From the IMG/VR virus record IMGVR_UViG_3300023087_000103, positions 1 to 23,658 of that record: a stretch of 23,658 nucleotides of DNA; one strand, written 5' to 3'. A program made the position numbers and the translations under genes. This DNA is from a virus. Positions 1-23,658 of this stretch are shown one piece after another. The notes under the pieces are model-generated. The model searched no databases, had not been told where the DNA came from, and worked only from the letters and a program-made list of their open reading frames with translations. Positions within the stretch are counted from its first letter, which is position 1, and each line of letters starts with the position of its first letter.

Positions 1-604
1 CACGACCACCTGTTGCCAGTGTAGGCGAAATTGAAGTCCAAAACTCTTCCGCAATATTAGGTTGCACAAACGCAAACTCGTCACAGTATAGTAGCGAGAT
101 AGACATACCACGTCCTGTGTTGCCTGTTGTTGTTTGACTTACAATACGACTTCCGTTTTCAAATTCAATACTACCTTTGTTGTAACTTGTAACACCTGCC
201 CTAATATGATCTGGACACGTTTCATATACATAGCGTATACGTGCCATAATCTCTTGCGCACCAGTATATTTGTGTGCCGCAATAAGAATAGTTTGGTCTG
301 GATGGAACATAGCATACCAAGCAAGATAGATAGCCGCACAAGTAGTCTTACCTGTTTGTCTCGGCATCATATTAATGTTAAATCTATAACTGTGATATGA
401 ATGCATTAAACGCAATTGATATTCATAGGGATCGAATAAAAGTTTACCTTGCACAGGATGTTGAATAAATGCAAAGTGTCTTGCAAAATGTAAATAGCCG
501 TCGTTAGGATCCATGCACTTAGCAATATCTTCTATCTGTGCATTTGTATATTGTTCTTTTTGATTTGCTTTTTTGGTTAATACACCGTCTAAACTTTTGC
601 TCAT
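1..604 (-). CDS. gp17: Terminase large subunit, N-terminal ATPase part (cut by window start)
   Basis: This is the ATPase half of the DNA-packaging motor that pumps DNA through the portal and cuts the concatemer. Reading leftward from the ATG at 604, the 201 visible residues carry a Walker A loop (PRQTGKTT, residues 81-88) and a Walker B segment (LLYCDEFAFV, 171-180), both close to T4 gp17. The segment after Walker B (SPTLATGGR) also fits. The C-terminal nuclease domain lies outside the window. There is no Shine-Dalgarno; the ATG follows a TAAATA box by 4 bases (TAAATACAGTATG). The preceding gene's stop lies inside that box. The family call is firm; only the length is unknown. Confidence 0.95.
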   Translation of the reverse strand, partial: MSKSLDGVLTKKANQKEQYTNAQIEDIAKCMDPNDGYLHFARHFAFIQHPVQGKLLFDPYEYQLRLMHSYHSYRFNINMMPRQTGKTTCAAIYLAWYAMFHPDQTILIAAHKYTGAQEIMARIRYVYETCPDHIRAGVTSYNKGSIEFENGSRIVSQTTTGNTGRGMSISLLYCDEFAFVQPNIAEEFWTSISPTLATGGR

Positions 605-608
605 ACTG

Positions 609-616
609 TATTTAAC
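609..616 (-). promoter_or_regulatory. Late-promoter-like box before terminase large subunit
   Basis: On the minus strand this reads GTTAAATA, ending 4 bases before the gp17 ATG (CAGT spacer). The same TAAATACAGTATGA string recurs before the genes starting at 9163 and, as GTAAATACAGTATGA, at 10252. T4 late promoters are TATAAATA-type -10 boxes recognised with phage gp55. Assignment as a late promoter is inference. Confidence 0.6.
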
Positions 617-950
617 TAATTATATCATTGTAATAGCCGGTATCGAAGCGTAAATCAAATAACTTACGTCTGTCTTGTTGTATTAGTATAGGAACTGGAC
701 TTGCATAATCTCCGTGCGTAGGTTCACTCCATAGCCATTCATATTCTAAACTTACATCTAACTTTTTACAAAGTTTTTTAAGACGTCTGCGATTATACCC
801 TTCGCATATGTATATAATGGCTTGATTGTTGCCTAATTCTTCTGTTTTACCGTCCCAATATTTTACTTTTATTTCACCCTTTTTCCAAGCGGCTCCGCTC
901 CAAGGACATACAGGTTTAATATGTTCAAAGTATTTGGTCCAGTCGATCAT
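612..950 (-). CDS. Hypothetical protein, 112 aa
   Basis: I do not recognise the family. The protein is 112 aa, mixed in charge and rich in aromatic residues, with no signal peptide or membrane segment. A basic patch (NRRRLKKLCKKL, about residues 53-64) follows a predicted beta strand (AIIYICEGY), which would suit a small nucleic-acid- or protein-binding domain. It is its own unit: a strong hairpin terminator lies just upstream (969-992), then a TAAATA box, then ATG 5 bases later, with no Shine-Dalgarno. Its stop codon lies in the promoter-like box of the terminase gene, so the two may be co-expressed. The ORF is supported by this layout and by its neighbours' tight packing. Confidence 0.75.
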   Translation of the reverse strand: MIDWTKYFEHIKPVCPWSGAAWKKGEIKVKYWDGKTEELGNNQAIIYICEGYNRRRLKKLCKKLDVSLEYEWLWSEPTHGDYASPVPILIQQDRRKLFDLRFDTGYYNDIIS

Positions 951-955
951 GAAAC

Positions 956-963
956 TATTTACA
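956..963 (-). promoter_or_regulatory. Late-promoter-like box before the 112-aa gene
   Basis: On the minus strand this reads TGTAAATA, then GTTTC, then the ATG at 950. It starts within a few bases of the end of the upstream terminator, so terminator and new promoter abut. Confidence 0.55.
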
Positions 964-992
964 GAAAAAAATAGGGCCCGTAGGCCCTATTT
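963..992 (-). terminator. Rho-independent terminator after the 226-aa gene
   Basis: A perfect 10-bp stem (969-978 with 983-992, AAATAGGGCC) closes a 4-base loop. On the minus strand it runs into a continuous T tract from the bases at 964-971. It lies 23 bases past the stop of the gene at 1015-1695. Confidence 0.9.
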
Positions 993-1014
993 GAATATAT
1001 GTTATATTTAATTA

Positions 1015-1695
1015 CTATTTCTTCTTGCCACGTCCACGTCCGCGACCTTCAGTTGTTTCAATATCTTCTTTTGCCTTCTTGCCACGTCCACGACCTTCTG
1101 TAGTAAGTTTTTCACTTAGTGCCTTCCAAAGTTCTTCTTTGATTGAATTTTCAAGTGCCATTGGATTGTCGCCATCTTGTGTAGCCTTATATGCTTTCTT
1201 TTCTCTATTTAAACCGCCTGACAAATCTTTAGTCATAGTTTTAACATTTGAATATTCTTCTTCTGGGCTATTGTCCCATTCTTCTTCAACATCGTCTTCA
1301 TCTTCCATTGCTGGCATTTCTGGACCATCTGTTGAAATTTTCATTAATTTTTTCATGTCGCCCATTTCGTCGTCATGTGTATCAGGTGCAGGTAATGCTG
1401 TAGGAGCAGGCATATGTACTGGCGCTTCTTGAGGAGACATTGCGCCGCCCATTAGCTTAATTAAATCTTCAACTGCATCGCCTCGAGCACTTAAATTAAC
1501 GTTCATTGATACTTTATCTTCTGGAGCAGTTGGCATGCTCATGTCGCTGCCGCAGCCTTCATCCATTCCGCATTCTTCAACTTGCTGAATAGACTCTAAA
1601 ATAGTTTTCATATCGTTTACGTCTTTTGCGCCAGCTGACGGTTTTTCTCCTTTAGCTGCCGAGTCCATGTTTTCTAAGATTTTTTTCATATCCAT
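1015..1695 (-). CDS. Acidic low-complexity protein with basic GRGRGKK tail repeats, 226 aa
   Basis: The function is not recognised. The protein is mostly acidic and Met/Pro/Asp/Glu-rich. Three related short motifs start DMK (MDMKKILENM at 1-10, NDMKTILESI at 28-37, GDMKKLMKI at 112-120). The end changes character: a short helix (about 181-197) is followed by two copies of TTEGRGRGKK (198-207 and 214-226), strongly basic and suited to DNA or RNA contact. An acidic body with a basic tail between two terminase genes would fit a scaffold, core or packaging accessory role; this is inference. A strong ribosome site (AGGAGG) precedes the ATG. It is co-directional with the 185-aa gene, 4 bases away, and is followed by a clear terminator. 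Confidence 0.8.
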   Translation of the reverse strand: MDMKKILENMDSAAKGEKPSAGAKDVNDMKTILESIQQVEECGMDEGCGSDMSMPTAPEDKVSMNVNLSARGDAVEDLIKLMGGAMSPQEAPVHMPAPTALPAPDTHDDEMGDMKKLMKISTDGPEMPAMEDEDDVEEEWDNSPEEEYSNVKTMTKDLSGGLNREKKAYKATQDGDNPMALENSIKEELWKALSEKLTTEGRGRGKKAKEDIETTEGRGRGRGKKK

Positions 1696-1699
1696 TATA

Positions 1700-2257
1700 T
1701 TAGCCTCCTACGACCGATTTAGTGTTTTCCGAATCATCAATGTCGCTTGATTCTCCCACAGGTGCGCCTTCTGCACCACTATGCAAGTTTTCTTTGCGAG
1801 CAGTTTCTAACTCTTTTAGTAAGTCCATCACTCTATTGCCTGCAACATCGTTTTGTGCTGATTCGCCGCCCATATCTTCATTAGGAAGCAATGGCTCATA
1901 TGCTTTATTATCTGATTCTTCTTGGTATTCTTCTTGTGGTGCAAGTGGATTACGTACAATAATATTGCTTTGTGGAATATCGCAACATTTGCCTAAATAT
2001 TCTTGTAAAACTTGAACCGTTGTTGGGTATGTTACTTCTGCTTCAAAATAAGTAACATCTATATTTTCTAATTGTGGAAAATCTAAAGGACGTTTTGAAA
2101 TTGGTACTCTTTTGCCGTCTGTTATTTTTACAATACCAAACTTTCCTAAAGCATTTTCTAATCCTGCTTTGCAATCTGTTGCATAATCACCTGCAACGCC
2201 AATTTTAAAATCATATGTCTTTTTAGACTCTGTTAAATATTCTGAAAAACTTTTCAT
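1700..2257 (-). CDS. Putative internal head protein with T4-like capsid-targeting N-terminus, 185 aa
   Basis: The N-terminus MKSFSEYLTES matches position by position the T4 capsid-targeting peptide (MKTYQEFIAEA pattern) that directs internal proteins into the prohead and is cut by protease gp21 after an (I/L)xE site; here the site would be LTE|S at residue 10. The rest looks like a compact alpha/beta domain (about residues 15-105) followed by an acidic, poorly structured tail. The globular domain is not one I can name. An AGGAA ribosome site precedes the ATG and a GATAAATA box lies about 20 bases upstream. Targeting into the head is inferred from the N-terminal match; the role after entry is unknown. 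Confidence 0.8.
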   Translation of the reverse strand: MKSFSEYLTESKKTYDFKIGVAGDYATDCKAGLENALGKFGIVKITDGKRVPISKRPLDFPQLENIDVTYFEAEVTYPTTVQVLQEYLGKCCDIPQSNIIVRNPLAPQEEYQEESDNKAYEPLLPNEDMGGESAQNDVAGNRVMDLLKELETARKENLHSGAEGAPVGESSDIDDSENTKSVVGG

Positions 2258-2277
2258 AACTTTATTCCTGCTTTGTA

Positions 2278-2775
2278 TTATTTATCCATATTCTTTAGTT
2301 TTTCTATTAAACTATTACGGTCTGTAACTACGTAACCTTCGCCGTTTACGATATCGCCGTCACTACTGCTATCTCTATCTAACTTTTCTTTCTTAAGTTG
2401 TAATTCGATCATTTTTAATTTTTTATCCATTTTAGCAACTTTAGAATCTAACGCAGTTTTTAACATACCTCCAGCAACTTCAAATACTCTACCGCTGTAA
2501 CGTGCTTCTACATTCATACCTAAATCCATTAAATCTTCGTATGCTGATAAAGCTCTATTAGAAATATCTTCTAATTCAGAATCTGCCTTATCTCCAAGAC
2601 CCTTTACTTTTGGTAATGCACTTGCAATTTTATCCATTTCTTGCAATGCATCAAAAGTTTCTCCTTGTTCAACTATAGCAGTTTCTCTTTTATTTTGTTT
2701 TTCTTCAGATTTTGCTTCATCTACAATTTCTTTCGAATCAGGCAAATTTAGAAGTTCTTCTAATTTTTTAGTCAT
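2278..2775 (-). CDS. gp16: Terminase small subunit
   Basis: The protein has 165 aa, almost the same as T4 gp16 (164). It has a variable acidic start, a helical centre (ALSAYEDLMDLGMNVEARYS at about 75-94) and a long charged coiled-coil-like helix (about 108-137), as expected for the ring-forming small terminase that recruits gp17 and DNA. The end (VVTDRNSLIEKLKNMDK) resembles the conserved C-terminal segment of marine T4-like gp16 (inference from memory of the family). It lies in the head/packaging block but is separated from gp17 by three genes, unlike T4, where 16 and 17 adjoin. No Shine-Dalgarno is evident. Confidence 0.75.
   Translation of the reverse strand: MTKKLEELLNLPDSKEIVDEAKSEEKQNKRETAIVEQGETFDALQEMDKIASALPKVKGLGDKADSELEDISNRALSAYEDLMDLGMNVEARYSGRVFEVAGGMLKTALDSKVAKMDKKLKMIELQLKKEKLDRDSSSDGDIVNGEGYVVTDRNSLIEKLKNMDK
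2279..2286 (-). promoter_or_regulatory. Late-promoter-like box before the 185-aa gene
   Basis: On the minus strand this reads GATAAATA, 21 bases before the ATG at 2257, leaving room for the AGGAA ribosome site. It overlaps the stop codon of gp16. Confidence 0.5.
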
Positions 2776-2801
2776 TACATTATACCATTATATGCTATTA
2801 T

Positions 2802-2809
2802 TATTTAGC
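2802..2809 (-). promoter_or_regulatory. Late-promoter-like box before gp16
   Basis: On the minus strand this reads GCTAAATA, overlapping the stop codon of gp4 and 26 bases upstream of the gp16 ATG. Two TATAATG strings lie between box and start, so the true start point of transcription is uncertain. Confidence 0.45.
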
Positions 2810-3245
2810 GTCTTTTGCCACCTTGATGAAAAATATCATTCTCTGTTATAACACGAAACGTCATACCTTTCTGTTTACAAAAAGCATATGCCGCCTCCCA
2901 TTTGGCTTGATTAACTATATAGCTTGCTTGATTAACTCGCGAACGTCCTACTTGTTCTTTATATGTTTGATTTGCTGGTTTTACTTCTACTAATTCAGCA
3001 CGAGATTTTCCTTTCTTATCAGCGTATGCAATAAAAAAGTCTGGTACATATATAGTATGTTTACCAGTTAACGGATTTTTATAAGGAATACGTATTGATT
3101 CAGATGCCCATTTTGCAACACTTGGGTGCTCATCGCAAAATTTCATAAAATAAAATTCCCAGCTGGATCTATATGTTGGTGATTTTGTACCTATATATTT
3201 TTCGGGAAATTTAGGTGTGAATTTTCCTTGAGCAAATCTTGACAT
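2805..3245 (-). CDS. gp4: Head completion protein gp4, nuclease-like
   Basis: This matches T4 gp4 (head completion, acting after packaging so that neck and tail can join) in length (146 aa) and motifs. A start rich in basic and aromatic residues leads to TYRSSWEFYFMKFCDEHP (24-41), then YVPDFFI (66-72) and VEVKP (86-90). The set E30, D69 and E87-x-K89 has the spacing of a PD-(D/E)xK nuclease fold, known for this family. It is tightly coupled to the upstream 122-aa gene (the stop and ATG are one base apart) and has no separate ribosome site. The next gene is the small terminase. Confidence 0.85.
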   Translation of the reverse strand: MSRFAQGKFTPKFPEKYIGTKSPTYRSSWEFYFMKFCDEHPSVAKWASESIRIPYKNPLTGKHTIYVPDFFIAYADKKGKSRAELVEVKPANQTYKEQVGRSRVNQASYIVNQAKWEAAYAFCKQKGMTFRVITENDIFHQGGKRR

Positions 3246-3246
3246 A

Positions 3247-3615
3247 TCACGCTACAATATTTCTTTTTTCAGTTTTATTAGACGATTCTGTTCTTTTAAA
3301 ACCTAAAGTACTTGTACGTGCTCGTGAATAATTTAATACTTCTGTAACTACTGCACTTAGTTGAACTGCTTCTAATCCTTTAAGTGTGTCTAATAATTTA
3401 AAAACATTAACGTTGTCAATTTTTGCTTGTTTTAATAATACTGTTGAAACAGCAATAGCCGCAGTTTTATCAAAATTTCTATTTTCAAAAAACCCAATTA
3501 CTGCATCTACTTGGTTAGTTGGAAAACTTAATTCTTTAGAATAAAATTCGTCAAAGAAAGTTGTTATTTCTTGATCAGTATATTTTTTTGTTTTTTGTTT
3601 TGGTAAACTTGACAT
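3247..3615 (-). CDS. Conserved marine T4-like virion-region protein, 122 aa
   Basis: A small, mainly helical protein without membrane segments. The C-terminal part (VLNYSRARTSTLGFKR, about 92-107) resembles small proteins I recall beside gp4 in marine T4-like phages, but I cannot give it a T4 name; assembly or baseplate helper roles are possible. An AAGGAT ribosome site precedes the ATG. It lies 9 bases after the tube-cap gene and one base before gp4, so it is the middle gene of a three-gene unit read from the box at 4905-4912. Confidence 0.7.
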   Translation of the reverse strand: MSSLPKQKTKKYTDQEITTFFDEFYSKELSFPTNQVDAVIGFFENRNFDKTAAIAVSTVLLKQAKIDNVNVFKLLDTLKGLEAVQLSAVVTEVLNYSRARTSTLGFKRTESSNKTEKRNIVA

Positions 3616-3624
3616 TTTTAATCC

Positions 3625-4899
3625 TTAATCAAATTTTTCTTTTTCAGATGTTGGTAAAGCATTAAAATCAGCTCTTGCCGCGTTTATGCCTCCAGAGTTA
3701 CCATCAGCAAGCCATTGTTTTGAAAATTTATTAAAACGTGCATCATCAATGTTAGTAGGATTAATATCTCCAGTTGATGTACTTGTTTGACTAATACTAC
3801 TTACTGCTGATAATCCAGCAATAGCAGTAGTTGCTATTAATAAATCTTTTCCAGAACCCCCGTTGCCGTTAGATTTTGGAAAGAATGTTTGAGAAACACC
3901 ACTTACATCAATACCTGCGGCACTACCGATAGCATCAGTTAGTATACTTAATCCGCCTGCTTTTAAACCTTCAAATCCATTATCTCTAACGCTGTTAAAA
4001 GCATTAACAGCCGCTATTCCTGCTTCAAAAGGATTACTAAAATTTTTACCTTGTGTAATATATTCGTATAAGTCAAGACCTACTCCAAATGCACCATCAA
4101 TACCTAATTGGCCGCCACCTAACGGAGATATTGGGCTTGGTGTTACGTCATAGTGGTCTGTTCTTCCAAATCCTGTAGGATCTCCGTTTTCTCCAGCTTC
4201 AACGTGTCCTCTATCGTAAAATACAGTATCGTACTGAATTGTCATCCTATTTTCCATAGGATTACTGGAAGTATTATCTACACTGTCATGTTGCCAATCA
4301 GTTACAATAGGATTAACTAATGTATACTTTGTATAATTTTTACGTGACATTTGCGATATTTCAATATAATCAAAAAATGGAATAGCTGGTATATTATTGT
4401 TCATACCAAATCTAAAATCATTATTTCCTTGACCGTCGTATAGCGTGTCACCAGTTGATCTATTTCCGTAAGATCCGTTATTTAAATTTTGTTGGCCATC
4501 TGCATAATAATATTTAAAATATGCTTCCATAAGTGCTGTAGTAGCACCATAGTTATCATCGTGGAAGGTAATACTAACCGGAGAATAACTTAATGATGTT
4601 TGTACATTTTTCTTACGATTGTATTTGTTTTTTGTTTCTACATTTGCTGTAAATTTTGGAAGATCGGCTTGTTTTACAAGCATACCAATTTCATGAATAT
4701 ATTGGTCAACTTCTTTAATTATTTTTTTGCCTTGCTCTGTTAAAACAAATCTTACATGATATGTAAAACTTAATTTTGGTGCGTGTTTTTGAGTATCAGT
4801 AACATATAAACGACTTGCGTGTTGCCAGTCGGCTAAGTTACCTTTAGGGTTTAACACACCATTGGCAATATTATCTAAAAATCCGTTGAACTTGCTCAT
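3625..4899 (-). CDS. Baseplate tail-tube cap/initiator-like protein (gp48/gp54 type)
   Basis: The 424-aa protein has a tail-tube-like N-terminal domain: FTYHVRFVLT (about 45-54), ADLPKFTANVETKNKYNRKK (about 78-97) and VSITFHDDNYG (about 108-118), followed by an aromatic stretch (YFKYYYADG). This pattern is typical of T4-type proteins that start or cap the tail tube on the baseplate (gp48, gp54); I cannot choose between the two. The C-terminal half is Gly/Ser/Asn-rich and looks like flexible or loop-rich sequence. It is the first gene of a unit with the 122-aa gene and gp4. The ATG lies 5 bases after a TAAATA box with no Shine-Dalgarno. Confidence 0.7.
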   Translation of the reverse strand: MSKFNGFLDNIANGVLNPKGNLADWQHASRLYVTDTQKHAPKLSFTYHVRFVLTEQGKKIIKEVDQYIHEIGMLVKQADLPKFTANVETKNKYNRKKNVQTSLSYSPVSITFHDDNYGATTALMEAYFKYYYADGQQNLNNGSYGNRSTGDTLYDGQGNNDFRFGMNNNIPAIPFFDYIEISQMSRKNYTKYTLVNPIVTDWQHDSVDNTSSNPMENRMTIQYDTVFYDRGHVEAGENGDPTGFGRTDHYDVTPSPISPLGGGQLGIDGAFGVGLDLYEYITQGKNFSNPFEAGIAAVNAFNSVRDNGFEGLKAGGLSILTDAIGSAAGIDVSGVSQTFFPKSNGNGGSGKDLLIATTAIAGLSAVSSISQTSTSTGDINPTNIDDARFNKFSKQWLADGNSGGINAARADFNALPTSEKEKFD

Positions 4900-4904
4900 A
4901 CTAA

Positions 4905-4912
4905 TATTTATC
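4905..4912 (-). promoter_or_regulatory. Late-promoter-like box before the tube-cap gene
   Basis: On the minus strand this reads GATAAATA, then TTAGT, then the ATG at 4899. It lies just downstream of the gp19 terminator (4934-4964), again a terminator-promoter pair between units. Confidence 0.6.
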
Positions 4913-4933
4913 TTTGGAAATTAAGTGCGTATA

Positions 4934-4964
4934 TAATAAAAAAGGGAGCTCAACGGCTCCCTTT
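4934..4964 (-). terminator. Rho-independent terminator after tail tube gene
   Basis: A perfect 9-bp stem (AAAGGGAGC at 4941-4949 with 4956-4964) closes a 6-base loop and is followed on the minus strand by TTTTTTATTAT. It lies 26 bases past the gp19 stop. Confidence 0.93.
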
Positions 4965-4989
4965 AATATTGAATGGCTAAGGAGTTGTA

Positions 4990-5616
4990 TTAAACGCCGC
5001 CGCCAGTAACTAAAGTATTTACTGTACGTCCGACTGCTGTACCAATACCAGTACCTTCTGGAGTTTGGATAGCATTATCGTAGCGTATAGTTAGGCCTAC
5101 TTGTACAGGCTCATTTGAGCTATATGCTAACTGATTGTAAGTTGCATTTTGTACAAAGCAACCATATAATTCAAAAGTTTCAAGTACATTAGGTGTATTA
5201 GCACCGTTACCACCGTCTAAGATTTCAATACGTGTTGTAAATTTGTAATCTTGTCCAGATGCCGCACTTGACTGCTCGTAGAAGTCGAATTGCTTCTGTA
5301 ATTGCTCGCCGACTAATTTTTGTACATTGTTGTTTACATCTTCACGTAAGTTAAGCGTAATTGCTTCCCAAGTATGCTTACCTGCTAAGTATGCACGTGA
5401 GTTATAAACTTCAATTGGAATCTCTTCAAAACTTACTGTTGGACGAGTTACGTCAACAACTTGTTTTGTTAATTCTGTTGTTGGTGTTGATACACCAAAG
5501 TTCTCTAAAGTAACACGGAAGCGATACTGTAGCTTAGGCATTAACAAGCCTTGTGCGCTTGCGCTGTCACCAGTTGCTAAAGGAACTGTAATTTTTGATA
5601 GTGTTGAAATTGCCAT
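4990..5616 (-). CDS. gp19: Tail tube protein
   Basis: This is the major tube subunit that lines the contractile tail. At 208 aa it is somewhat longer than T4 gp19 (163). Features that fit are LMPKLQYRFRVTLENFG (about 25-41), DVTRPTVSFEEIPIEVYNSR (about 54-73), the HTWEAITLNLRED segment, and a C-terminal LTIRYDNA strand, all typical of the T4-like tube fold. The tail ends in Gly/Val-rich sequence. A good AGGAG ribosome site and a GCTAAATA box lie upstream. It sits directly after the sheath gene, as in T4, but has its own promoter-like box and hairpins on both sides, allowing higher expression than the sheath. Confidence 0.92.
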   Translation of the reverse strand: MAISTLSKITVPLATGDSASAQGLLMPKLQYRFRVTLENFGVSTPTTELTKQVVDVTRPTVSFEEIPIEVYNSRAYLAGKHTWEAITLNLREDVNNNVQKLVGEQLQKQFDFYEQSSAASGQDYKFTTRIEILDGGNGANTPNVLETFELYGCFVQNATYNQLAYSSNEPVQVGLTIRYDNAIQTPEGTGIGTAVGRTVNTLVTGGGV

Positions 5617-5637
5617 TCTTTGTTCTCCTGTTGCAAG

Positions 5638-5645
5638 TATTTAGC
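5638..5645 (-). promoter_or_regulatory. Late-promoter-like box before gp19
   Basis: On the minus strand this reads GCTAAATA, 21 bases before the ATG, with AGGAG between. It follows directly on the hairpin at 5654-5674. Confidence 0.6.
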
Positions 5646-5674
5646 AAATTTAAAGCCCCATTATTTCAGGGGCT
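5645..5674 (-). terminator. Probable terminator between sheath and tube genes
   Basis: A 6-bp GC-rich stem (AGCCCC/GGGGCT, 5654-5659 with 5669-5674) has a 9-base loop and is followed on the minus strand by TTAAATTT. It is weaker than the other two terminators and may be leaky. Confidence 0.6.
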
Positions 5675-5686
5675 CTAAGTTATGCG

Positions 5687-8600
5687 TTATAGCCCGCTAA
5701 TTTCTCCAGTGTTTTTAAGTCTTAGTGGAATGTAAATAAATTCAACTGCTTTAACAGGCTCAATAGCAATGTCTAAGTATAGTTCATTTCTATCAATTCT
5801 GCTTGGAGTATTGTTTGATTCATCACATACTACTAAGAAGTCATAAAGTGCTCTTTGACCCACAAGCTCAAGCATTAAGCTCTCTGCCGCTTGTTTGATC
5901 TCATCGCGTGTAATCTTATCATTTGGTTCAAAGATGTAAGGCTTAGCAAGTTGATTTAACTGCGAACGTAAGTAAATTACTAAACGTGCTACGTTAATTC
6001 TATCTAATGCGCTTGAACCTCTTGCACGAGTCTTCTGTCCAAAGTTAACAAGTCCTGCACCACTAATAAATGTAATTGGGTTAACATTTTGTGCATATAA
6101 TGTATCACGTTGTCCTTCATTTAGTGCAACAGTTACAAATTCGCCTTCTGCATCAACAAAACCTGTTGCAGTAGCGTTAGTAATACCACCACGTCTTGTA
6201 CCTGCTGGTGCAAACCATGGGAAGCTAACTTGGTCACTTAGTGCAACTGTGCGTAGCATCATATGACTTGGTGGAACAACAACGTTGTTTCCTGCATTGT
6301 CACTTGTGAAGCCCCATGGATAAAAGATACCAAAGTATTCATCTCTGCTTACTAAGCCATCGTCGTTATCTTCTGGTGCTAATGCTTGGTTAGTTGCCCA
6401 GTTATTAAGTGCTGTAGCATTTGGTTCTAATCTTGCTGGCGTATCACCAATAACAAATGCTGTTAAGCCTCTGTCATAGTTTAGAGTAATCATTTCGCCA
6501 ATTAGCTCTGGATACCCTGGAGTTGCCATCAAGTTAAAGATTCTTGACTCATCATCTCTAATATCGTCGTTGCTGTTTAGCATTGCTTGTAAAGATTGTA
6601 CAATTACTTTACGCTGTGCTTTACGACCAAAGCTACCTGAACCATCGCCTTGGTTGCCTGACTCAGTTACCCAACGATGTGGATAATAATCAGCCATTGC
6701 TTCATCGCCCTGACGACCGTTATCGCCGTTTACATCAATGTAGTTACGTACAAATTTCTTAACATTAAAGCCAGAACGTCTTAGATTCCATAGCAACATA
6801 CCTTTTGGATATAGTGCTGGATCTGGAGCATCTGGATCTAAGTAGTCACTTGTTAGTAGATCTACAATAGAACCGTCTTCGTCGCTGTTTGCACCTGCTG
6901 TGTTATAACGAGCATCTGCAAATAGTACACCATCTTCTGATGTTTGGTCTGCTTTATCAAGCAATGTCCAACGATTAGCAATCGGTGTGTTTAACAACTC
7001 TGCATTGTACTTGTAAATTTGTGGATAATTTTCAATATCTGATGTATCAATCCATAAATCGCCAGTTACAAGTGCTGTTCCGTCGCTTTGTAGCAGTGGA
7101 GTACTTGCACTTACAATTGGACCTGCAGGGTCACAATCGGCATAATCTGCACTAAAGTTTTGATATCCAACCCAAGTATCACCATTATGAATCATAATAT
7201 CTACTTCGTCTACAATTGAATTATACCATAAAGCACCGTCTTCAGTTAATGAAGTAACTTCATCATCTGACGCTGTGTAAAATGCAACTTCTGTTCCTGA
7301 AGAATTAGCTGTTGCCTTCCAAAGAGATGCTTTTAATTGTAATGGATTAGTATTACCGTCTGTTCCTTGTTCGTAGTATAAGTTTGGTGTTCCTGAAGTA
7401 ACACTTTCAAAATGTGCAAAGCCCATTCTACTTAATACTGCATTATCAGAATCATCAACAAGTTTTACATCGCCGCCTTTAGCGTGAGTAATAACAATTT
7501 TGTTTCCTGTAACTACTTCTGCACTTACATGCGTAACATTTGCGTTTGATATTGCTGATGCAACAACTTCAGCATCAGTTGATGCGCCTGTAGTTGTAAA
7601 CTCAATTGAAACAATAGTACTTAGATCTGCTTCTCCTGGTGCTGTTGCTTGAATACCAATAGTGTAAGTATCTGCAATAATTCCTGAAGATCCAATAGCC
7701 GATCCTGTTACTGTAGTTGGTGCAACACCGTTACGTCTAAATACTTTAAATGTTGCTAATGGCTGTGTATCAGCCGCTACGTTTGATTGTACATAAATGT
7801 CGCCGGCTGCAAGACCTTCGCCACCGCCAGTTCTATCTAAACTATAAAGTGCTTCAGAATGTGAAGCAAAAATTGGAGCTTCTACTGCGTCCCATAATTT
7901 AGTAGCATCATTGAAAGATTTAATTCTCCAACGTGCACCGTTTCCTGGCTCAGTTGTTTTAATCCAAACAGAACCTGTTGGACGAGAATAAGTATCGCTT
8001 GATTTAAATGCAGGCACTTTAGTATGCTTGTCGATATGTAATGCTGGTGGATAATAAGTATCTACTTCAATTCCAAGTTCGCCAAGTAAAATAGTGTCGC
8101 CGCCAATTTCAATTTGACCAGTTGCAGAAGAATCACCTTGTGCTGAATCTGTTCCGTCACTGTAAATTTCTAAACGTCCATCAACTGCTGCCGCGCTAAT
8201 ACTTCCTGTTGGAAATACCTGCGTAATCTTAGTTGCAACATCTCCAATTGTTTCTGCATCTGTTACAGTAATGTCTGTATCGTTAATAGTAATAACTGCA
8301 CTGCCTTGTGAGAACGAAGGATTAGACTTAGTGCCTCTTACTGTTGCCCAGCTCTTAGTCCAGGGCTCACTACCAACAAGTACCCATTTCCCTGAAGCAT
8401 TTCTGTAAAAAATTCTAACAATAGTAGATGCAAATACTACAGCATAGTCGCCAATTGCTCCAACTGTTTCTTTTGGAACATAACCTGAAGTACCGTTTGC
8501 ATTCATAGTACCAAATTCAAGCCTTGTTGAATCTGTAATTACAATTGGATCTTTACTTGTGAATGATTGTCCGCCTGTTGTAGTAACTCCTGCGCCATTC

Positions 8601-9046
8601 CATTCTTGAATTCCAAATTTAGAAATTTGTGTATCTAACCAATATGTGCCGTTAGCAGGGGTAGCTGCCGGAGCATCTGCTGTCGGATTTAATGCAGCCA
8701 AATCAATGTCTGCTCTTACAACCCATGCTCTATTGCTTACACCTAAATATGAATAAGCAGCCTGTAAGCCATATTCGTTAAGCTCACCTGCGTGAATTGG
8801 GTTATTGTTGTTATCTGTGTAAAACAGTGGATCGCCAAATGTGTCTGCTAAATCACGTTGTGATGTTAACAAAAATGGTTTTCCAGCGTTTGCCTTTAGC
8901 GTACCTTGAGCTGTTCCAGTTCCGCTTGCATTTGTTTTATTTTCAGCGGAAGCAACAAAAATCATCGGTGTTGTGCCAGGCTCAGCCGGAGTGTAAAAAC
9001 TCTCGTCAATTACTTTGACTTCTACTCCTGGTGATGTTAATGCCAT
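5687..9046 (-). CDS. gp18: Contractile tail sheath protein, very long form with inserted modules
   Basis: The sheath subunit contracts around the tube at infection. The N-terminal handle (SPGVEVKVIDESF, 5-17) and the C-terminal core (from about 745, including ITFISGAGLVNFGQKTRARG and the last 110 residues) are clear T4 gp18. At 1119 aa it is about 460 longer than T4 gp18 (659). The extra mass lies at about 120-745. It includes two stretches resembling flagellar hook IN motifs (about 249-326 and 459-543) and several 'W-(I/Y)-D/N-T ... W' beta modules (about 133-150, 357-386, 604-627 and 661-697). I chose the ATG at 9046 because AGGAGA lies 6 bases upstream; the in-frame GTG at 9097 overlaps the late-promoter-like box. 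The insertions should decorate the tail surface. Confidence 0.93.
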   Translation of the reverse strand: MALTSPGVEVKVIDESFYTPAEPGTTPMIFVASAENKTNASGTGTAQGTLKANAGKPFLLTSQRDLADTFGDPLFYTDNNNNPIHAGELNEYGLQAAYSYLGVSNRAWVVRADIDLAALNPTADAPAATPANGTYWLDTQISKFGIQEWNGAGVTTTGGQSFTSKDPIVITDSTRLEFGTMNANGTSGYVPKETVGAIGDYAVVFASTIVRIFYRNASGKWVLVGSEPWTKSWATVRGTKSNPSFSQGSAVITINDTDITVTDAETIGDVATKITQVFPTGSISAAAVDGRLEIYSDGTDSAQGDSSATGQIEIGGDTILLGELGIEVDTYYPPALHIDKHTKVPAFKSSDTYSRPTGSVWIKTTEPGNGARWRIKSFNDATKLWDAVEAPIFASHSEALYSLDRTGGGEGLAAGDIYVQSNVAADTQPLATFKVFRRNGVAPTTVTGSAIGSSGIIADTYTIGIQATAPGEADLSTIVSIEFTTTGASTDAEVVASAISNANVTHVSAEVVTGNKIVITHAKGGDVKLVDDSDNAVLSRMGFAHFESVTSGTPNLYYEQGTDGNTNPLQLKASLWKATANSSGTEVAFYTASDDEVTSLTEDGALWYNSIVDEVDIMIHNGDTWVGYQNFSADYADCDPAGPIVSASTPLLQSDGTALVTGDLWIDTSDIENYPQIYKYNAELLNTPIANRWTLLDKADQTSEDGVLFADARYNTAGANSDEDGSIVDLLTSDYLDPDAPDPALYPKGMLLWNLRRSGFNVKKFVRNYIDVNGDNGRQGDEAMADYYPHRWVTESGNQGDGSGSFGRKAQRKVIVQSLQAMLNSNDDIRDDESRIFNLMATPGYPELIGEMITLNYDRGLTAFVIGDTPARLEPNATALNNWATNQALAPEDNDDGLVSRDEYFGIFYPWGFTSDNAGNNVVVPPSHMMLRTVALSDQVSFPWFAPAGTRRGGITNATATGFVDAEGEFVTVALNEGQRDTLYAQNVNPITFISGAGLVNFGQKTRARGSSALDRINVARLVIYLRSQLNQLAKPYIFEPNDKITRDEIKQAAESLMLELVGQRALYDFLVVCDESNNTPSRIDRNELYLDIAIEPVKAVEFIYIPLRLKNTGEISGL

Positions 9047-9052
9047 TATCGT

Positions 9053-9058
9053 TCTCCT
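9053..9058 (-). promoter_or_regulatory. Shine-Dalgarno that fixes the sheath start
   Basis: AGGAGA on the minus strand, 6 bases before the ATG at 9046. It excludes the upstream in-frame GTG at 9097 as the main start. Confidence 0.85.
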
Positions 9059-9087
9059 ATAATTCGAGTTGGTAGTTTCGTTACATG

Positions 9088-9095
9088 TATTTAGC
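9088..9095 (-). promoter_or_regulatory. Late-promoter-like box before gp18
   Basis: On the minus strand this reads GCTAAATA, 41 bases upstream of the sheath ATG. The divergent plus-strand box for the HNH gene lies at 9151-9158. Confidence 0.6.
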
Positions 9096-9150
9096 ACCGT
9101 AACATAAAAATAGGCTGTTAAACACCGTTAAAAAGGCACCAAAAAGGTGA

Positions 9151-9158
9151 GCTAAATA
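9151..9158 (+). promoter_or_regulatory. Late-promoter-like box before the HNH gene
   Basis: GCTAAATA, then CAGT, then the ATG at 9163. The full string from TAAATA to ATGAG is shared with the terminase start at 604. A small hairpin (CACC-AAAAA-GGTG) lies just upstream. Confidence 0.6.
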
Positions 9159-9162
9159 CAGT

Positions 9163-9498
9163 ATGAGACCATTATGCAAGTGCGGACAACGTCCGGCCGC
9201 TATAAATTATAAAAAAGGAGATAGAATCTATTATAGAAGTCTATGCGAATCTTGCCTGCGTAACGGTTTAGGTCACGGTATTCCTAAATGGAAGCAAAAG
9301 GGTTATACAAAATTAGATACTTGCGAAAAGTGTGGTTTTAAAAGTAAACACACTGAACAGTTTAATGTGTTTCACATTGATGGAAATTTAGAAAATTGTC
9401 GCCCTACAAACTTAAAAACTATTTGTGCTAACTGTCAGCGTATTCTGCAAAAAGAGGGAGTTGTGTGGAAACAGGGAGACTTAGTCCCCGATTTCTAA
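9163..9498 (+). CDS. Small HNH-type zinc-binding protein
   Basis: The 111-aa protein is built around four Cys pairs (C5/C7, C28/C31, C54/C57, C88/C91). The last two pairs frame an HNH-like core: FHIDGN (70-75) and NLKTIC (83-88). This is a treble-clef zinc fold as in HNH endonucleases; the N-terminal pairs form a second zinc knuckle. Stand-alone proteins with this layout are common in marine T4-like phages, some as homing or packaging-associated nucleases; activity here is not shown. It is the only plus-strand gene in this part of the window, is transcribed divergently from gp18, and its last 71 bases overlap the 3' end of the opposing kinase gene. There is no Shine-Dalgarno; the ATG follows the TAAATA box by 4 bases. 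Confidence 0.82.
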   Translation: MRPLCKCGQRPAAINYKKGDRIYYRSLCESCLRNGLGHGIPKWKQKGYTKLDTCEKCGFKSKHTEQFNVFHIDGNLENCRPTNLKTICANCQRILQKEGVVWKQGDLVPDF

Positions 9499-9988
9499 AA
9501 ATAGTACGTATAAGTGTGTCTACATTTTTTTGCAATCTATCTAAATCGCCATTGTTGTCAATAGTGTAATCACACATCCATTGTTCGATGCTCATTGACT
9601 TAGGATCTTCCTTAGGCAAATGATCTGTGCGATCTACCCAAATAGCATAGTCAAAGATTTCTTCGTTTTGCATAGCAAAGAATTCACGTTTATTACGCAG
9701 TCCACAGTATATTTGATTCTGGGCAAACAAGTTGCGTCCAAGGCGTGCCAAATCATCTTTACAGTAGTCATGAATCATATTGTACCACAACTCTCGATGA
9801 TTGTGTCGATCTGCGTAACATTCTTCTTCGTTAGCATAACCATGCTTGTCTTTTAGATCGTTGAATATAAACAGTTCTGAACAGAACTTAGAACTTGATT
9901 GAAATGTATATCCGTACTTCTCTAACATTTCACAAACGGTATCTTTGCCATGACGACCATGACCAACAATTAATAACTTAGGTAACAT
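9428..9988 (-). CDS. Deoxynucleoside monophosphate kinase-like P-loop enzyme
   Basis: The protein (186 aa) starts with a beta strand and P-loop (LLIVGHGRHGKDT, 5-17). This variant, with KDT in place of KST/KTT, is typical of phage dNMP kinases of the T4 gp1 type, which supply dNDPs for genome synthesis. A DYAIWVDRTDHLP segment (about 112-124) fits the second core strand and lid region. T4 gp1 is longer (241 aa), so this is a compact form; other adenylate-kinase-like folds are possible. It has an AGAGGAAA ribosome site and, unlike the virion genes around it, a consensus sigma70 promoter. Its 3' end overlaps the HNH gene. Confidence 0.78.
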   Translation of the reverse strand: MLPKLLIVGHGRHGKDTVCEMLEKYGYTFQSSSKFCSELFIFNDLKDKHGYANEEECYADRHNHRELWYNMIHDYCKDDLARLGRNLFAQNQIYCGLRNKREFFAMQNEEIFDYAIWVDRTDHLPKEDPKSMSIEQWMCDYTIDNNGDLDRLQKNVDTLIRTIFRNRGLSLPVSTQLPLFAEYADS

Positions 9989-9998
9989 GTATTTCCTC

Positions 9999-10019
9999 TA
10001 TAATATAAGTTATATTATA
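9999..10019. repeat. Perfect 21-bp palindrome over the kinase promoter start region
   Basis: TATAATATAA-G-TTATATTATA. It covers the -10 box and the expected transcription start of the promoter at 10014-10042 and the stop codon of the 80-aa gene. It could act as an operator, or simply give the -10 sequence on both strands. Confidence 0.6.
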
Positions 10020-10252
10020 ATAGGATTTGGTCCCTTTGTCAAGTTCTTTTTTGCGTTTTCTGCTTGCCGTTGTGCCCAGGCTGCTTCAAACCCTAACTCA
10101 GCATATTGAGCTCTTTCGTGATTGCCCCATAGTCTACGAAAATATGATTCATACGTAGACATGATATCTTTATCACTCCAGCTTTCGGGAATAAGTTGAC
10201 CTTTGACCATCCAGTAAAAACGATTTGCTTCTTTTTCTTGAAAGTATGTCAT
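10010..10252 (-). CDS. Hypothetical protein, 80 aa
   Basis: A small, mixed-charge, probably helical protein rich in aromatic residues (NRFYWMVKGQLIPESW near the start). No family recognised, no membrane segment or signal. The ATG lies inside a 20-bp palindrome that also contains a TGTAAATA box, with 4 bases from box to ATG and no Shine-Dalgarno. The consensus sigma70 promoter of the downstream kinase gene is embedded in its 3' end (-35 at 10037-10042). It is a plausible real gene because its start shares the control string of the terminase and HNH genes. Confidence 0.65.
   Translation of the reverse strand: MTYFQEKEANRFYWMVKGQLIPESWSDKDIMSTYESYFRRLWGNHERAQYAELGFEAAWAQRQAENAKKNLTKGPNPIII
10014..10042 (-). 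promoter_or_regulatory. Consensus sigma70 promoter for the deoxynucleotide kinase gene
   Basis: On the minus strand TTGACA (10037-10042), a 17-base spacer, and TATAAT (10014-10019): a full match to the bacterial housekeeping consensus at both hexamers. The expected start is near 10007, about 19 bases before the kinase ATG. Confidence 0.85.
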
Positions 10253-10269
10253 ACTGTATTTACAGTATG
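10250..10269. repeat. 20-bp palindrome across a start codon and late-promoter-like box
   Basis: CATACTGTA-TT-TACAGTATG is a 9-bp inverted repeat with a 2-base centre (itself not self-complementary). On the minus strand it contains TGTAAATA (10257-10264) and the ATG of the 80-aa gene. Confidence 0.6.
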
Positions 10270-10289
10270 TTTAGATTATAGCGTTAACA

Positions 10290-11273
10290 TTAGCCAATAG
10301 TAAAGCCGTAGCCAACACCACCGCCAACTTGTTGCATAAGGTCTGCTTCAAGTTTTTCCATTTCTTGCTGTGCTTCTGCTTTTAGTGCATCACCGTTAAG
10401 TGTTGATCCGCCTTGTGGTCCTGCAATAGTAGCAAACTTTGAACGTGCTTCACCTAACATATATTTACAACCAGCAAGCGTATAATCTTTAATCCATTGA
10501 CTTGCAAGATAGTCATTTAATAGTTCGCTATCTGGACGATAATTGTAAACATATAGTAATAAATTTTCTTCTGCTCTTGGACGTTGTAATAGTGTAAGTT
10601 GCTTGGTAGTTGTGTTCCATTTAAACTCAATAAATGAACCAAACATACGTCCAACTAATTCTTGATATTGACTAAAAAAGTCATAAGTTGCTAAGCCGCC
10701 CATCTTACTACTTGATAATAAGTAAGCATTTGTATAAGCTAATCCAAAAGGGTCAAACAGTGATCCGCCACTATTTTCTCCAGTAGCAAATAATTTAATT
10801 CCAACAACATCGCCTGCATTCAACGGTGAGTTAAAAGTTAGTGTTCTTTGTGTAGAATCTGTTACAAAATTATTAGTACTACTACCATTTACTTCGGCAA
10901 TAACAGTTGCTACACTACTAAGATTATAGTTTATACTAAACGTACTTTGGTTTGCGGTTGCTGTATAAGATTGTGTAAAAATTGGTCCTGAAGTATTTCC
11001 TGTGATTGCTCTTGAGCCAATACTTCTACGAAACAGTTTACGAACTTCTATTACTTCGTTTGGTAACGTATATGTATTTTGATCAAGCACAGTCGGCATG
11101 AACATATATGATTCTTCTACAGAGTTATCAGATCTTTGTCTAAACTTAGTAAGTGCTTTCTTTAATGCAGTCTCGTAATGAATAGGATCGAGCTCAACAT
11201 CAATCATGCCGCCACCTAAGAATGCGTTAACATAATCAAATATTTCTTGTTTTTGTGTGGTTAAGTCTGCCAT
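10290..11273 (-). CDS. gp13: Neck protein gp13, with an inserted fibre-type beta module
   Basis: gp13 forms part of the collar that seals the filled head and joins the tail. The ends of this 327-aa protein fit the marine T4-like gp13 family: helical start (DYVNAFLGGGMIDVELDP, 13-30), TALKKALTKFRQRS (35-48), then FDPFGLAYTNAYLL and the C-terminal AGCKYMLGEARSKFATIAGP. Between about 100 and 163 it carries a beta-rich insert (SYTATANQSTFSINYNL ... AEVNGSS ... NAGDVVGIKLF) of a type seen as repeats in phage tail fibres. A GGAG ribosome site precedes the ATG and a GATAAATA box lies at 11296-11303. gp14 and gp15 lie on the other strand, unlike T4. Confidence 0.85.
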   Translation of the reverse strand: MADLTTQKQEIFDYVNAFLGGGMIDVELDPIHYETALKKALTKFRQRSDNSVEESYMFMPTVLDQNTYTLPNEVIEVRKLFRRSIGSRAITGNTSGPIFTQSYTATANQSTFSINYNLSSVATVIAEVNGSSTNNFVTDSTQRTLTFNSPLNAGDVVGIKLFATGENSGGSLFDPFGLAYTNAYLLSSSKMGGLATYDFFSQYQELVGRMFGSFIEFKWNTTTKQLTLLQRPRAEENLLLYVYNYRPDSELLNDYLASQWIKDYTLAGCKYMLGEARSKFATIAGPQGGSTLNGDALKAEAQQEMEKLEADLMQQVGGGVGYGFTIG

Positions 11274-11295
11274 ATACTAATAATCTCCGCTAAAG

Positions 11296-11303
11296 TATTT
11301 ATC
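11296..11303 (-). promoter_or_regulatory. Late-promoter-like box before gp13
   Basis: On the minus strand this reads GATAAATA. It is back to back with the plus-strand box at 11305-11312; together they form a near-palindrome. Confidence 0.6.
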
Positions 11304-11304
11304 G

Positions 11305-11312
11305 AATAAATA
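11305..11312 (+). promoter_or_regulatory. Late-promoter-like box before gp14
   Basis: AATAAATA, ending on the A of a first in-frame ATG (11312). The second ATG at 11318 lies 5 bases past the box, matching the spacing seen at other leaderless-looking starts. Confidence 0.55.
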
Positions 11313-11317
11313 TGTAT

Positions 11318-12700
11318 ATGCCAAGATTAAGTTTATACAAACCGGAAAAAGGACAAGACTACACTTTCTTAGATAGACAAATCTTAGAAATGTTTACCAT
11401 TGGCGGCACCGATATACATGTTCACAAGTATTTGGGTCCGTCAAATCCTGACGAAGAAGATGCTACTGCTACTGAACCTCGCTACGATGCAGTAAAAGAA
11501 ACTAATATTCAAGATATGCTATTTCTTGAAAACAGAGATAGAAAATACGATCCGGACATTTATAGAATGCGTGGAATATACAATGTGCAAGATGTTGATT
11601 TTAATCTTTCACAATTTGGTATGTTCTTAGACAATGACACTTTATTTTTAACAATACATATTAATAGTAGTGTAAAGACACTTGGTCGCAAGATTATGAC
11701 TGGTGATGTTATTGAACTTCCTCACCAAAAAGACGAATACGCACTTAATGATTATAAAGTTGCACTTAAAAGATATTATGTTGTAGAAGATGTTAATCGT
11801 GCAAGTGAAGGGTACTCACCTACGTGGTATCCGCACTTATATAGATTAAAATTAAAACAAATTGTTGACAGTCAAGAGTTTGCTGAAATACTTGATTTGC
11901 CTGCTGATGCTGATAATGACAATGGAGATACATTGCGTGATATGCTTTCTACATATGAAAAAGAAATGCAAATTAATGATGCAGTTATAAATCAAGCTGA
12001 AGCTGATGCTCCAAAATCTGGTTATGACACAAGTCATTATTATTCTTTAGAAGTCAAGACTACTGAAACAGGTAGTGATGTAGAAGTTACGAAAGTTAAT
12101 AATGAAACTGTTACTGTTCCGCCTTCTAAAAGTGGGTATGCAGGTTATTTAGTAGGCGACGAATTAGCACCTAATGGTGAAAATTTTGGTCACGGAATAC
12201 AATTTCCAATTAATCCTGGCGTTGGTGACTTTTTCTTAAGAACAGATTTTATGCCAAAGCGTATGTTTAGATTTGACGGCGATAGATGGGTTAAAGTACA
12301 TGATGTACAGAGAATGACAATGACTAATACCAATACACGAGCAACACAAAAAGCAACATTTATTAATAACAATAACTATGTTTATAACGAAAAAGTTGCA
12401 AGCACAAGTGTAAAAGTTTCAAAAGACGATATAGTAATTTCAACATCAATTGCATATCCAGTCGATGCAAAATATCTAATGTTAAAATTTGATACACTTG
12501 AAAAAGCATATGTTATTTCAGACCATCCTGAATTAATTACATCTAATAGTGATAACACTGTTTTAATTACTTTACCTGAAGAAGCAGGAATACAAGATAG
12601 TATCGAATATGACGGAATATGGACTGTAAACTTCTATAATAATAGAGAAGCAGAGCGTCAAGGACTTTCTAAAGCACTAAGACCTAAGGCAGACAACTAA
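11318..12700 (+). CDS. gp14: Neck protein gp14, extended
   Basis: The start (LDRQILEMFTIGGTDIHVHKY, running to about residue 38 from this start) is the conserved T4-like gp14 neck motif, followed by a long beta-rich part. The protein has 460 aa against 256 for T4 gp14. The extra C-terminal part contains a GDFFLRTD ... FRFDGDRWVK module (about 303-327) like the W modules in the sheath. I placed the start at 11318 because the ATG at 11312 overlaps the promoter-like box; starting at 11312 would add two residues. No Shine-Dalgarno. The stop overlaps the next start (TAATG), so gp15 is translationally coupled. Confidence 0.82.
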   Translation: MPRLSLYKPEKGQDYTFLDRQILEMFTIGGTDIHVHKYLGPSNPDEEDATATEPRYDAVKETNIQDMLFLENRDRKYDPDIYRMRGIYNVQDVDFNLSQFGMFLDNDTLFLTIHINSSVKTLGRKIMTGDVIELPHQKDEYALNDYKVALKRYYVVEDVNRASEGYSPTWYPHLYRLKLKQIVDSQEFAEILDLPADADNDNGDTLRDMLSTYEKEMQINDAVINQAEADAPKSGYDTSHYYSLEVKTTETGSDVEVTKVNNETVTVPPSKSGYAGYLVGDELAPNGENFGHGIQFPINPGVGDFFLRTDFMPKRMFRFDGDRWVKVHDVQRMTMTNTNTRATQKATFINNNNYVYNEKVASTSVKVSKDDIVISTSIAYPVDAKYLMLKFDTLEKAYVISDHPELITSNSDNTVLITLPEEAGIQDSIEYDGIWTVNFYNNREAERQGLSKALRPKADN

Positions 12701-20573: not shown

Positions 20574-21581
20574 TTAATGTCCTCCTGTATGGGAACAAGT
20601 TGAATTATTATCAAATTGATTCTGTGTTGGTTGTTGTGGTGCTGAACGCTCACTTTTACCTACACGTTTTTTAATAGAATTAACTATACTATCAATTTGT
20701 TCTTGTGTCAAGTCCATTGCTTTATCATTTAATCTGTCAGGTTCTTCTTCCATTGATACTCTAATAGGACTATATACACGTCTTCCTTCGCCAACATCAA
20801 AGATTTCAATATCTTTGTCATTTACGTATGATGTGTTAATTGGATATGTACTACCAGTAATAACTGTAGCAGTGGTGCCAAGTGATTTAGCAATATGTTG
20901 TCCTACACTGTCACATCCTAAGAAGTGATCTGCGGCATCAATTACTCCTCCCCAAATTCTAATATCTGGAATTTCTGGTTGTGCGAGAGGAGCTTCGTTA
21001 GGATCTTCATTATACATGTTAAGCGGCAATTCGCTCATTATAATAATTCCGTATTCTTTTTTAAGTTCGTTAGCGATTGCTAACATATCTTCTACGCGAA
21101 AACTTCTCGATGTTTGATCTATTAATGTTTGTTCAACTCCTCTGCCAAAAGGTTGAATTACAATTACTTTACTTAAACCAGTAACTGCTTTAACTTCGTC
21201 AACAACACTTTTACCGTGTAACTTTTCTGATTTATTAAGATATATTTGGGGAATATGTAAATCTCTAATACCTTTTTTATTAATTTCAATATCAAAGGCT
21301 TGTGCAATACTGCATTTTTGATTATAATACTCCCAAATACGATATGGTTCTGGACTTACACAAGTTCTATCTTTAATAAAGTTTTCAAATAATCCTTTGT
21401 GCCAAACGTCATATGCACGTTTATGCAATGTAGGATGTCCTTTATAGAAATCAGTTCCTCCTTCACAGACAATAATAAAATCATCCTCAGGATTTTCTTT
21501 TTCAAAAAGTTCAAGTGCGGGAATTGATGTTATAACACGGCCGGCGCCGCCGTTAATAAAAAATGCTGTTGATCTTGACAT
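20574..21581 (-). CDS. GT9/heptosyltransferase-like glycosyltransferase
   Basis: The protein (335 aa) has the two-part layout of glycosyltransferase family 9, the LPS ADP-heptosyltransferase family. At the start, GGAGRVITSIPALELF (11-26) matches the G-D-x-(L/V)-x-T-x-P-(A/L)-L segment. A linker leads to the second Rossmann domain with VIVIQPFGRG (139-148). DAADHFLGCDSVGQHIAKSLG (215-235) corresponds to the donor-binding DTG-x-x-H-x-A-x-A motif, here DSVGQHIA. The last 25 residues are Gln/Asn/Ser-rich and probably disordered. The next genes (1 base away) are the carbamoyltransferase and an oxygenase. ADP-heptose as donor is inferred from hldE/hldD nearby; related GT9-like proteins also act on proteins. 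AAGGATAG lies upstream, inside an inverted repeat. Confidence 0.78.
   Translation of the reverse strand: MSRSTAFFINGGAGRVITSIPALELFEKENPEDDFIIVCEGGTDFYKGHPTLHKRAYDVWHKGLFENFIKDRTCVSPEPYRIWEYYNQKCSIAQAFDIEINKKGIRDLHIPQIYLNKSEKLHGKSVVDEVKAVTGLSKVIVIQPFGRGVEQTLIDQTSRSFRVEDMLAIANELKKEYGIIIMSELPLNMYNEDPNEAPLAQPEIPDIRIWGGVIDAADHFLGCDSVGQHIAKSLGTTATVITGSTYPINTSYVNDKDIEIFDVGEGRRVYSPIRVSMEEEPDRLNDKAMDLTQEQIDSIVNSIKKRVGKSERSAPQQPTQNQFDNNSTCSHTGGH
20581..20586 (-). promoter_or_regulatory. Shine-Dalgarno that fixes the carbamoyltransferase start
   Basis: AGGAGG on the minus strand, 8 bases before the ATG at 20572, inside the 3' end of the GT9 gene. It excludes the upstream in-frame start at 20653. Confidence 0.9.
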
Positions 21582-21584
21582 AGG

Positions 21585-21639
21585 TAAACACTATCCTTAC
21601 TAATATTCAAAAATATTTATAGTTACAGGATAGTGTTTA
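21585..21639 (-). promoter_or_regulatory. 13-bp inverted repeat with a late promoter in its loop, before the GT9 gene
   Basis: TAAACACTATCCT (21585-21597) and its exact complement (21627-21639) flank 29 bases. The loop holds TATAAATA. On the minus strand the second arm carries AGGATAG, the likely ribosome site of the GT9 gene. Read-through RNA from the upstream genes would contain both arms and mask this site; RNA started in the loop would contain only the second arm. There is no T tract, so it is not a normal terminator. Confidence 0.75.
21614..21621 (-). promoter_or_regulatory. TATAAATA late promoter for the GT9/carbamoyltransferase unit
   Basis: On the minus strand this is an exact copy of the T4 late -10 consensus TATAAATA, within the loop of the inverted repeat at 21585-21639. 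The expected start is near 21607. Confidence 0.75.
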
Positions 21640-23358: not shown

Positions 23359-23658
23359 TTATGCATCTCCTTTTAATTTATTTATTTCTTCTTTTAATTC
23401 TTTAATTGCCTCTACAAGTAATGGTACTACTCTTTCGTATTGTAGTGTTTTGTAATCTTCGCCTGAAATACTATTATCGTCTTCATCTCTATCAAATGGA
23501 GCATTGTGAATAATTTCAGGAAGTACTGCTTCAACTTCTTGTGCAATCAAACCTACTTCAGTTTTTTCTTTATCAAAACCTTCTGGTGTGTTTTCATTCC
23601 AATTATATGTTACACCATTAAGTAACATAACTTTATCTAATGCATTTGGAATGTTTTC
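23359..23658 (-). CDS. Tail fibre C-terminus with S74 intramolecular chaperone (cut by window end)
   Basis: The reading frame is open to the window edge; 99 codons are visible. The sequence from NALDKVMLLNGVTYNWNE through VGLIAQEVEAVLPEI, then LQYERVVPLLVEAIKEL and a short charged coiled coil, is a standard Peptidase S74 domain, the self-cleaving chaperone that trimerises fibres and endosialidases. The upstream fibre body is outside the window. Its stop directly abuts the ATG of the Cys/Gly-rich gene (TAAATG), so the two are translated as a unit; AAGGAG lies inside its last codons. The internal ATG at 23628 is not the true start because S74 residues continue upstream of it. Confidence 0.92.
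   Translation of the reverse strand, partial: ENIPNALDKVMLLNGVTYNWNENTPEGFDKEKTEVGLIAQEVEAVLPEIIHNAPFDRDEDDNSISGEDYKTLQYERVVPLLVEAIKELKEEINKLKGDA

Follow-up and report, generated by a model that had tools for sequence, protein, structure and literature searches.

T4-type late promoter boxes next to start codons suggest leaderless late mRNAs in marine phages

In a fragment of a T4-like marine phage, six genes start at an ATG placed four or five bases after a TAAATA box, and this close-box class reaches well past these six genes, as seen from spacing in related contigs and in cultured pelagiphages. We consider leaderless late mRNAs, transcribed from T4-type late promoters, to be the best explanation for the close boxes, with a probability of about 0.8 on the strength of sequence comparisons. 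The window, that is, the whole stretch of DNA analyzed, is the entire IMG/VR record IMGVR_UViG_3300023087_000103 (23,658 bases). The genes recognized in it include those for the terminase large subunit, tail tubes, sheath, gp4-like and gp13-like proteins, and a gp15-like sheath stabilizer. Judging by the structural protein encoded at 11318, the closest cultured relatives are Sinorhizobium phage Phosso, Agrobacterium phage Atu_ph07, and Pseudomonas phage PA5oct. Gene starts are the output of a simple purpose-made ORF caller. The six close boxes, their genes, and the adjoining terminators are as follows.

609-614, minus strand: TAAATA box, CAGT (4 bases) to ATG 604; shares bases with the stop codon of the preceding gene
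1-604, minus strand: 5' part of the terminase large subunit gene, truncated by the window edge; predicted leaderless
956-961, minus strand: TAAATA box, GTTTC (5 bases) to ATG 950
969-992, minus strand: intrinsic terminator, 10-bp stem and T-run, just ahead of the 950 box
612-950, minus strand: 112-aa gene, function unassigned; predicted leaderless
4905-4910, minus strand: TAAATA box, TTAGT (5 bases) to ATG 4899
4941-4964, minus strand: intrinsic terminator upstream of the 4899 box
3625-4899, minus strand: tail-tube-like protein gene, 424 aa; predicted leaderless
9153-9158, plus strand: TAAATA box, CAGT (4 bases) to ATG 9163
9163-9498, plus strand: HNH-endonuclease-like gene, 111 aa; predicted leaderless
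10257-10262, minus strand: TAAATA box, CAGT (4 bases) to ATG 10252
10010-10252, minus strand: 80-aa gene, function unassigned; predicted leaderless here
11307-11312, plus strand: TAAATA box, TGTAT (5 bases) to ATG 11318
11318-12700, plus strand: virion structural protein gene (phrog_11591); predicted leaderless

The first-pass annotation had listed these six boxes and described all six starts as lacking a Shine-Dalgarno (SD) sequence. The boxes and spacers are all as it gave them, and the lack of an SD sequence holds for five starts; the start at 9163 has an SD-like AGGTGA, but this lies 12-13 nt from the ATG, upstream of the box and outside the predicted mRNA. It had also set apart gp18, gp19, and gp13 as genes with an SD sequence and a more distant box, and we found the same, with AGGAG or GGAG as the SD sequence. 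Further distant boxes, beyond those on its list, precede the starts at 2257, 2775, 21581, and 23358. The leadered boxes (distance being the number of bases from box to ATG) are the following.

2279-2284, minus strand: leadered box of gene 1700-2257, distance 21
2802-2807, minus strand: box of gene 2278-2775, distance 26, weak SD
5638-5643, minus strand: box of the tail tube (gp19) gene, ATG 5616, distance 21, SD
9088-9093, minus strand: box of the tail sheath (gp18) gene, ATG 9046, distance 41, SD
11296-11301, minus strand: box of the gp13-like head-tail adaptor gene, ATG 11273, distance 22, SD; divergent from the 11318 box
21614-21619, minus strand: leadered box of gene 20574-21581, distance 32, SD
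23379-23384, minus strand: box of gene 22495-23358, distance 20, SD; inside the upstream ORF

The close spacing is not a product of base composition. TAAATA lies at distance 4 or 5 from 6 of the 24 starts in the window, while in 2000 shuffles of the upstream regions such starts averaged 0.15 and never exceeded 2. Among the boxes within 45 nt of a start, 6 of 13 are at these two distances (binomial P ~9e-6). Of 14 other hexamers with the same bases, 13 score zero in the window, and the remaining one, AAATAT, scores two, both being TAAATAT, i.e., the box shifted by one base; in the relatives, the only spikes that other A4T2 hexamers have at 4/5 are likewise the box read out of register. Nor is there a spike at these distances in an AT-rich Pelagibacteraceae genome. 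TAAATA as such is not over-represented across the window (40 occurrences, 48 expected), so the unusual thing is its placement.

A tally of spacing and SD matches in relatives, which the first-pass annotation had proposed as a check, gave the same two classes. In ~1.6 Mb of related contigs, sampled as stretches and yielding phylogenetically redundant contexts, the distance is 4 in 48 cases and 5 in 99, with a total of 22 cases at 6-12 and 286 at 13-40. The distribution is bimodal, with a peak at 4/5, a nearly empty interval at 6-12, and, from 13 to 40, a wide second rise made up mostly of genes with an SD sequence; a histogram of 81 loci similarly has maxima at 4 and 5, almost nothing at 6-12, and a renewed climb from ~16. 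The close cases are spread across 18 protein clusters. Counted as distinct clusters, there are 7 at distance 4 and 14 at distance 5, compared to 0-7 at distances 6-12, the value of 7 being reached at distance 7. About one-third of the late-promoter genes in the window phage and its relatives belong to the close class. SD matches are frequent in the distant class; in the close class they are mostly lacking, and the exceptions there belong mainly to the HNH family, where the match is upstream of the box. The gap at 6-12 may be the range in which a leader would be too short for an SD sequence.

The spacing is conserved gene by gene. Distance 4 or 5 was found in 7 of 8 start-aligned orthologs of the terminase gene (identified by a PHROG terminase match at 3e-46 and by Pfam Terminase_6N), in 24 of 26 for the tail-tube-like gene, and in 37 of 38 for the HNH gene, and the family of the 11318 gene contributes 47 start contexts at these distances. 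Single orthologs at distance 7-8 occur in families otherwise at 4/5, and in places there may therefore be a leader of 2-3 nt. The mode may also switch within one gene: the homolog of the 11318 gene in Phosso is SD-led, with the box far upstream and the identical start methionine, and one tail-tube ortholog has distance 19 and AGGAG.

The start sites of the close class have further marks in the relatives. Their start codons are ATG in 147 cases and GTG or TTG in one, while GTG and TTG starts with a distant box do occur. The base at -1 is T in 137 cases, C in 9, and A in 1 (a pyrimidine in 146 of 147), while the leadered class is A-rich at this position; a pyrimidine at -1 fits the pyrimidine/purine step at which transcription would initiate. 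An intrinsic terminator precedes the box by no more than 45 nt in 26 of 147 close cases, as compared to 4 of 205 leadered ones; such terminators lie at 950, at 4899, and at many orthologs. The two bases before TAAATA vary, and the box precedes sheath, tube, adaptor, and terminase genes.

We propose that the TAAATA boxes are T4-type late promoters, which would be read by the host RNA polymerase with a gp55-type sigma factor. Homologs of gp55, the late sigma factor, were found in relatives L090, L098, and L099, and none in the window fragment; searches of the partial records of the relatives with small profiles gave no matches to the gp45 clamp or the gp33 co-activator. In the close class, a -10-like element 4-5 bp before the ATG would put +1 on the A or within a base of it; for a box ending five bases before the ATG, +1 would be the A itself. 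In T4, the late promoter consists of 8 bp situated roughly one turn of the helix before the transcription start (PMC2988020), and +1 might therefore be displaced by one or two bases. Such mRNAs would have neither a leader nor an SD sequence, and the ribosome would have to start on the 5'-terminal AUG. The remaining late genes, with the identical box 13-40 bp upstream, would have an ordinary SD leader. The first-pass annotation had suggested leaderless mRNAs of this kind, and every test that we ran on the sequences supports them. Pointing the other way are the orthologs at distance 7-8, the SD-like element of the HNH family upstream of its box, and the apparent lack, in a crude test, of a clear sigma-70 leaderless class in a SAR11-type genome itself.

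The alternative that survives best, which we nevertheless consider unlikely, is dual use, with the genes expressed mainly from read-through transcripts or by coupling to the upstream gene and the leaderless transcript being minor. The ATG at 604 comes 7 nt after the preceding stop codon, and the overlap of this stop with the terminase box (window 602-614) means that stop-restart coupling is also possible; gene 10252 overlaps the upstream stop in some relatives, where it is apparently coupled to the upstream gene; and the HNH gene has its SD-like element upstream of the box. However, several members of the class are divergent from their neighbor or lie right behind a terminator, and for these a longer transcript is not expected.

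AU-rich regions can help translation initiation, and TAAATA beside the ATG could be such a signal within a longer mRNA rather than a promoter. The lack of SD sequences at the close starts and the overlap of the 604 box with a stop codon would agree with this. Still, we find it very improbable, as the identical hexamer with similar flanks also lies 13-40 bp upstream of SD-led late genes, the terminators directly upstream would cut off a longer mRNA at 950, 4899, and in many orthologs, the divergent gp2 and gp4 genes of phage HTVC008M leave only 26 bp for it, and the hexamer controls described above have no spike of their own. Least probable of all is that the starts are misassigned and the boxes are ordinary leadered promoters of SD-led starts farther downstream: the annotation is mechanical and gene 10252 does have an in-frame ATG with GGAG at codon 31, but the other five genes have no SD-led alternative in their first 40 codons, and the N-termini are conserved in orthologs, the SD-led Phosso homolog included. 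The 11318 ORF has a second in-frame ATG, at 11312, which overlaps the box; its homologs begin at the 11318 methionine.

Several of these loci have additional features. An 8-bp perfect inverted repeat, CATACTGT/ACAGTATG (window 10250-10269), spans the box and the ATG of gene 10252, and its consensus TACTGTAAATACAGT is retained in close orthologs. HNH orthologs retain AAAAAGG..ACCAAAAAGGTGAG upstream of the box (window 9128-9152), which may be SD-like or part of an antisense terminator. At 11296-11312, two divergent late boxes are separated by 5 bp, and relatives retain the palindrome-like TATTTATCG...CGATAAATA; with this spacing, one leadered and one putatively leaderless gene share a promoter core, and their use is probably mutually exclusive. 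Gene 9428-9988, which is SD-led, has a perfect TTGACA-17-TATAAT in front of it (window 10014-10042), a promoter of the host type among the late ones.

Among cultured phages, the class is most evident in the distantly related marine phage HTVC008M, with 11 ATGs at distance 5 and one at distance 4. Its gp2 and gp4 have divergent starts 26 bp apart, with both boxes in the gap at distance 5, and this arrangement is kept in its metagenomic relatives (38 cases at distance 5, none at 4). Mosig has four cases in 100 kb and more in the remainder, and Melnitz (OM43) has at least two convincing ones (one gp2-like gene, one cyclase-like). In T4, there is a single candidate at 4/5 and no spike, and no close cases were found in Syn9 (100 kb), RaK2 (50 kb), or Phosso (50 kb). 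Whole-genome pattern counts, given against a reversed-pattern control, are 12 vs. 1 in HTVC008M and 7 vs. 2 in Mosig, 2 vs. 4 in P-SSM2, 1 vs. 3 in S-PM2, and 3 vs. 9 in RaK2, with none in phiM12; Atu_ph07 has 10 matches vs. 3 in controls, but the matches fetched were mostly off gene starts, and we do not count it. No close-box class was seen in the cyanophages examined. A trait of all T4-like phages is ruled out by T4 and Syn9, and at the level of samples or patterns by RaK2, phiM12, P-SSM2, and S-PM2; a trait of SAR11 phages only is weakened by the Melnitz cases. In Melnitz (MZ577097), a gp3-like gene has an SD-led start, ahead of which (129244-129272) a late box is followed at distance 5 by an ATG in another frame; this ATG is possibly the start of a leaderless upstream ORF.

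The first-pass annotation had linked the class to changes of the ribosome during infection. HTVC008M, Mosig, and Melnitz carry a phage S21 gene; it was not found in the partial records of the window's relatives, so the idea gains no support here. As Melnitz moreover has S21 but few predicted leaderless genes, we rejected S21 as a driver. In the Pelagibacteraceae genome, 203 of 316 first starts have no SD match, and such hosts may thus depend only weakly on SD pairing. Close spacing might compact the genome and set low expression for some genes, which is a guess; comparison with protein copy numbers gave a mixed picture. A broader proposal, which we put forward tentatively and with the odds somewhat against it, is that several marine T4-like lineages, including those of SAR11, have one promoter type and two modes of late translation set only by the box-to-ATG distance, the leaderless and SD-led proteins differing in rate or in their response to the state of the ribosome during infection.

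If the leaderless reading is true, virion genes of abundant marine phages (terminase, gp2, gp3, gp4) are translated without SD pairing, and HTVC008M on HTCC1062 is a cultured system for leaderless translation. Gene callers also gain a practical rule: in these phages, an ATG with TAAATA 4-5 bp before it is probably a genuine start. Late transcription in T4 is textbook material; we found no report of a leaderless class at T4-type late promoters in the searched open-licence literature, and the portions of papers on marine T4-like phages that we consulted describe the late box and not a leaderless class.

The T4 late promoters (TATAAATA; gp55, gp33, gp45) are similar in having the same box, SD-leadered late genes 13-40 bp downstream of it, and gp55, which has homologs in the window's relatives. 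Unlike T4, the window lineage and SAR11 phages add a class with the box touching the ATG. The Thermus phage phiYS40 is unrelated to T4 and is not known to use gp55-type promoters, and its leaderless mRNAs are linked to changes in IF2/IF3. Its middle and late genes are reported to be largely expressed as leaderless mRNAs (cited in PMC3594737), which gives a phage precedent for leaderless mRNAs of later genes. In Deinococcus-Thermus, the -10 region adjoins ORFs a few bp before the ATG, yielding leaderless mRNA (PMC12340547); there, it belongs to a bacterial housekeeping promoter, whereas here it would belong to a phage late promoter.
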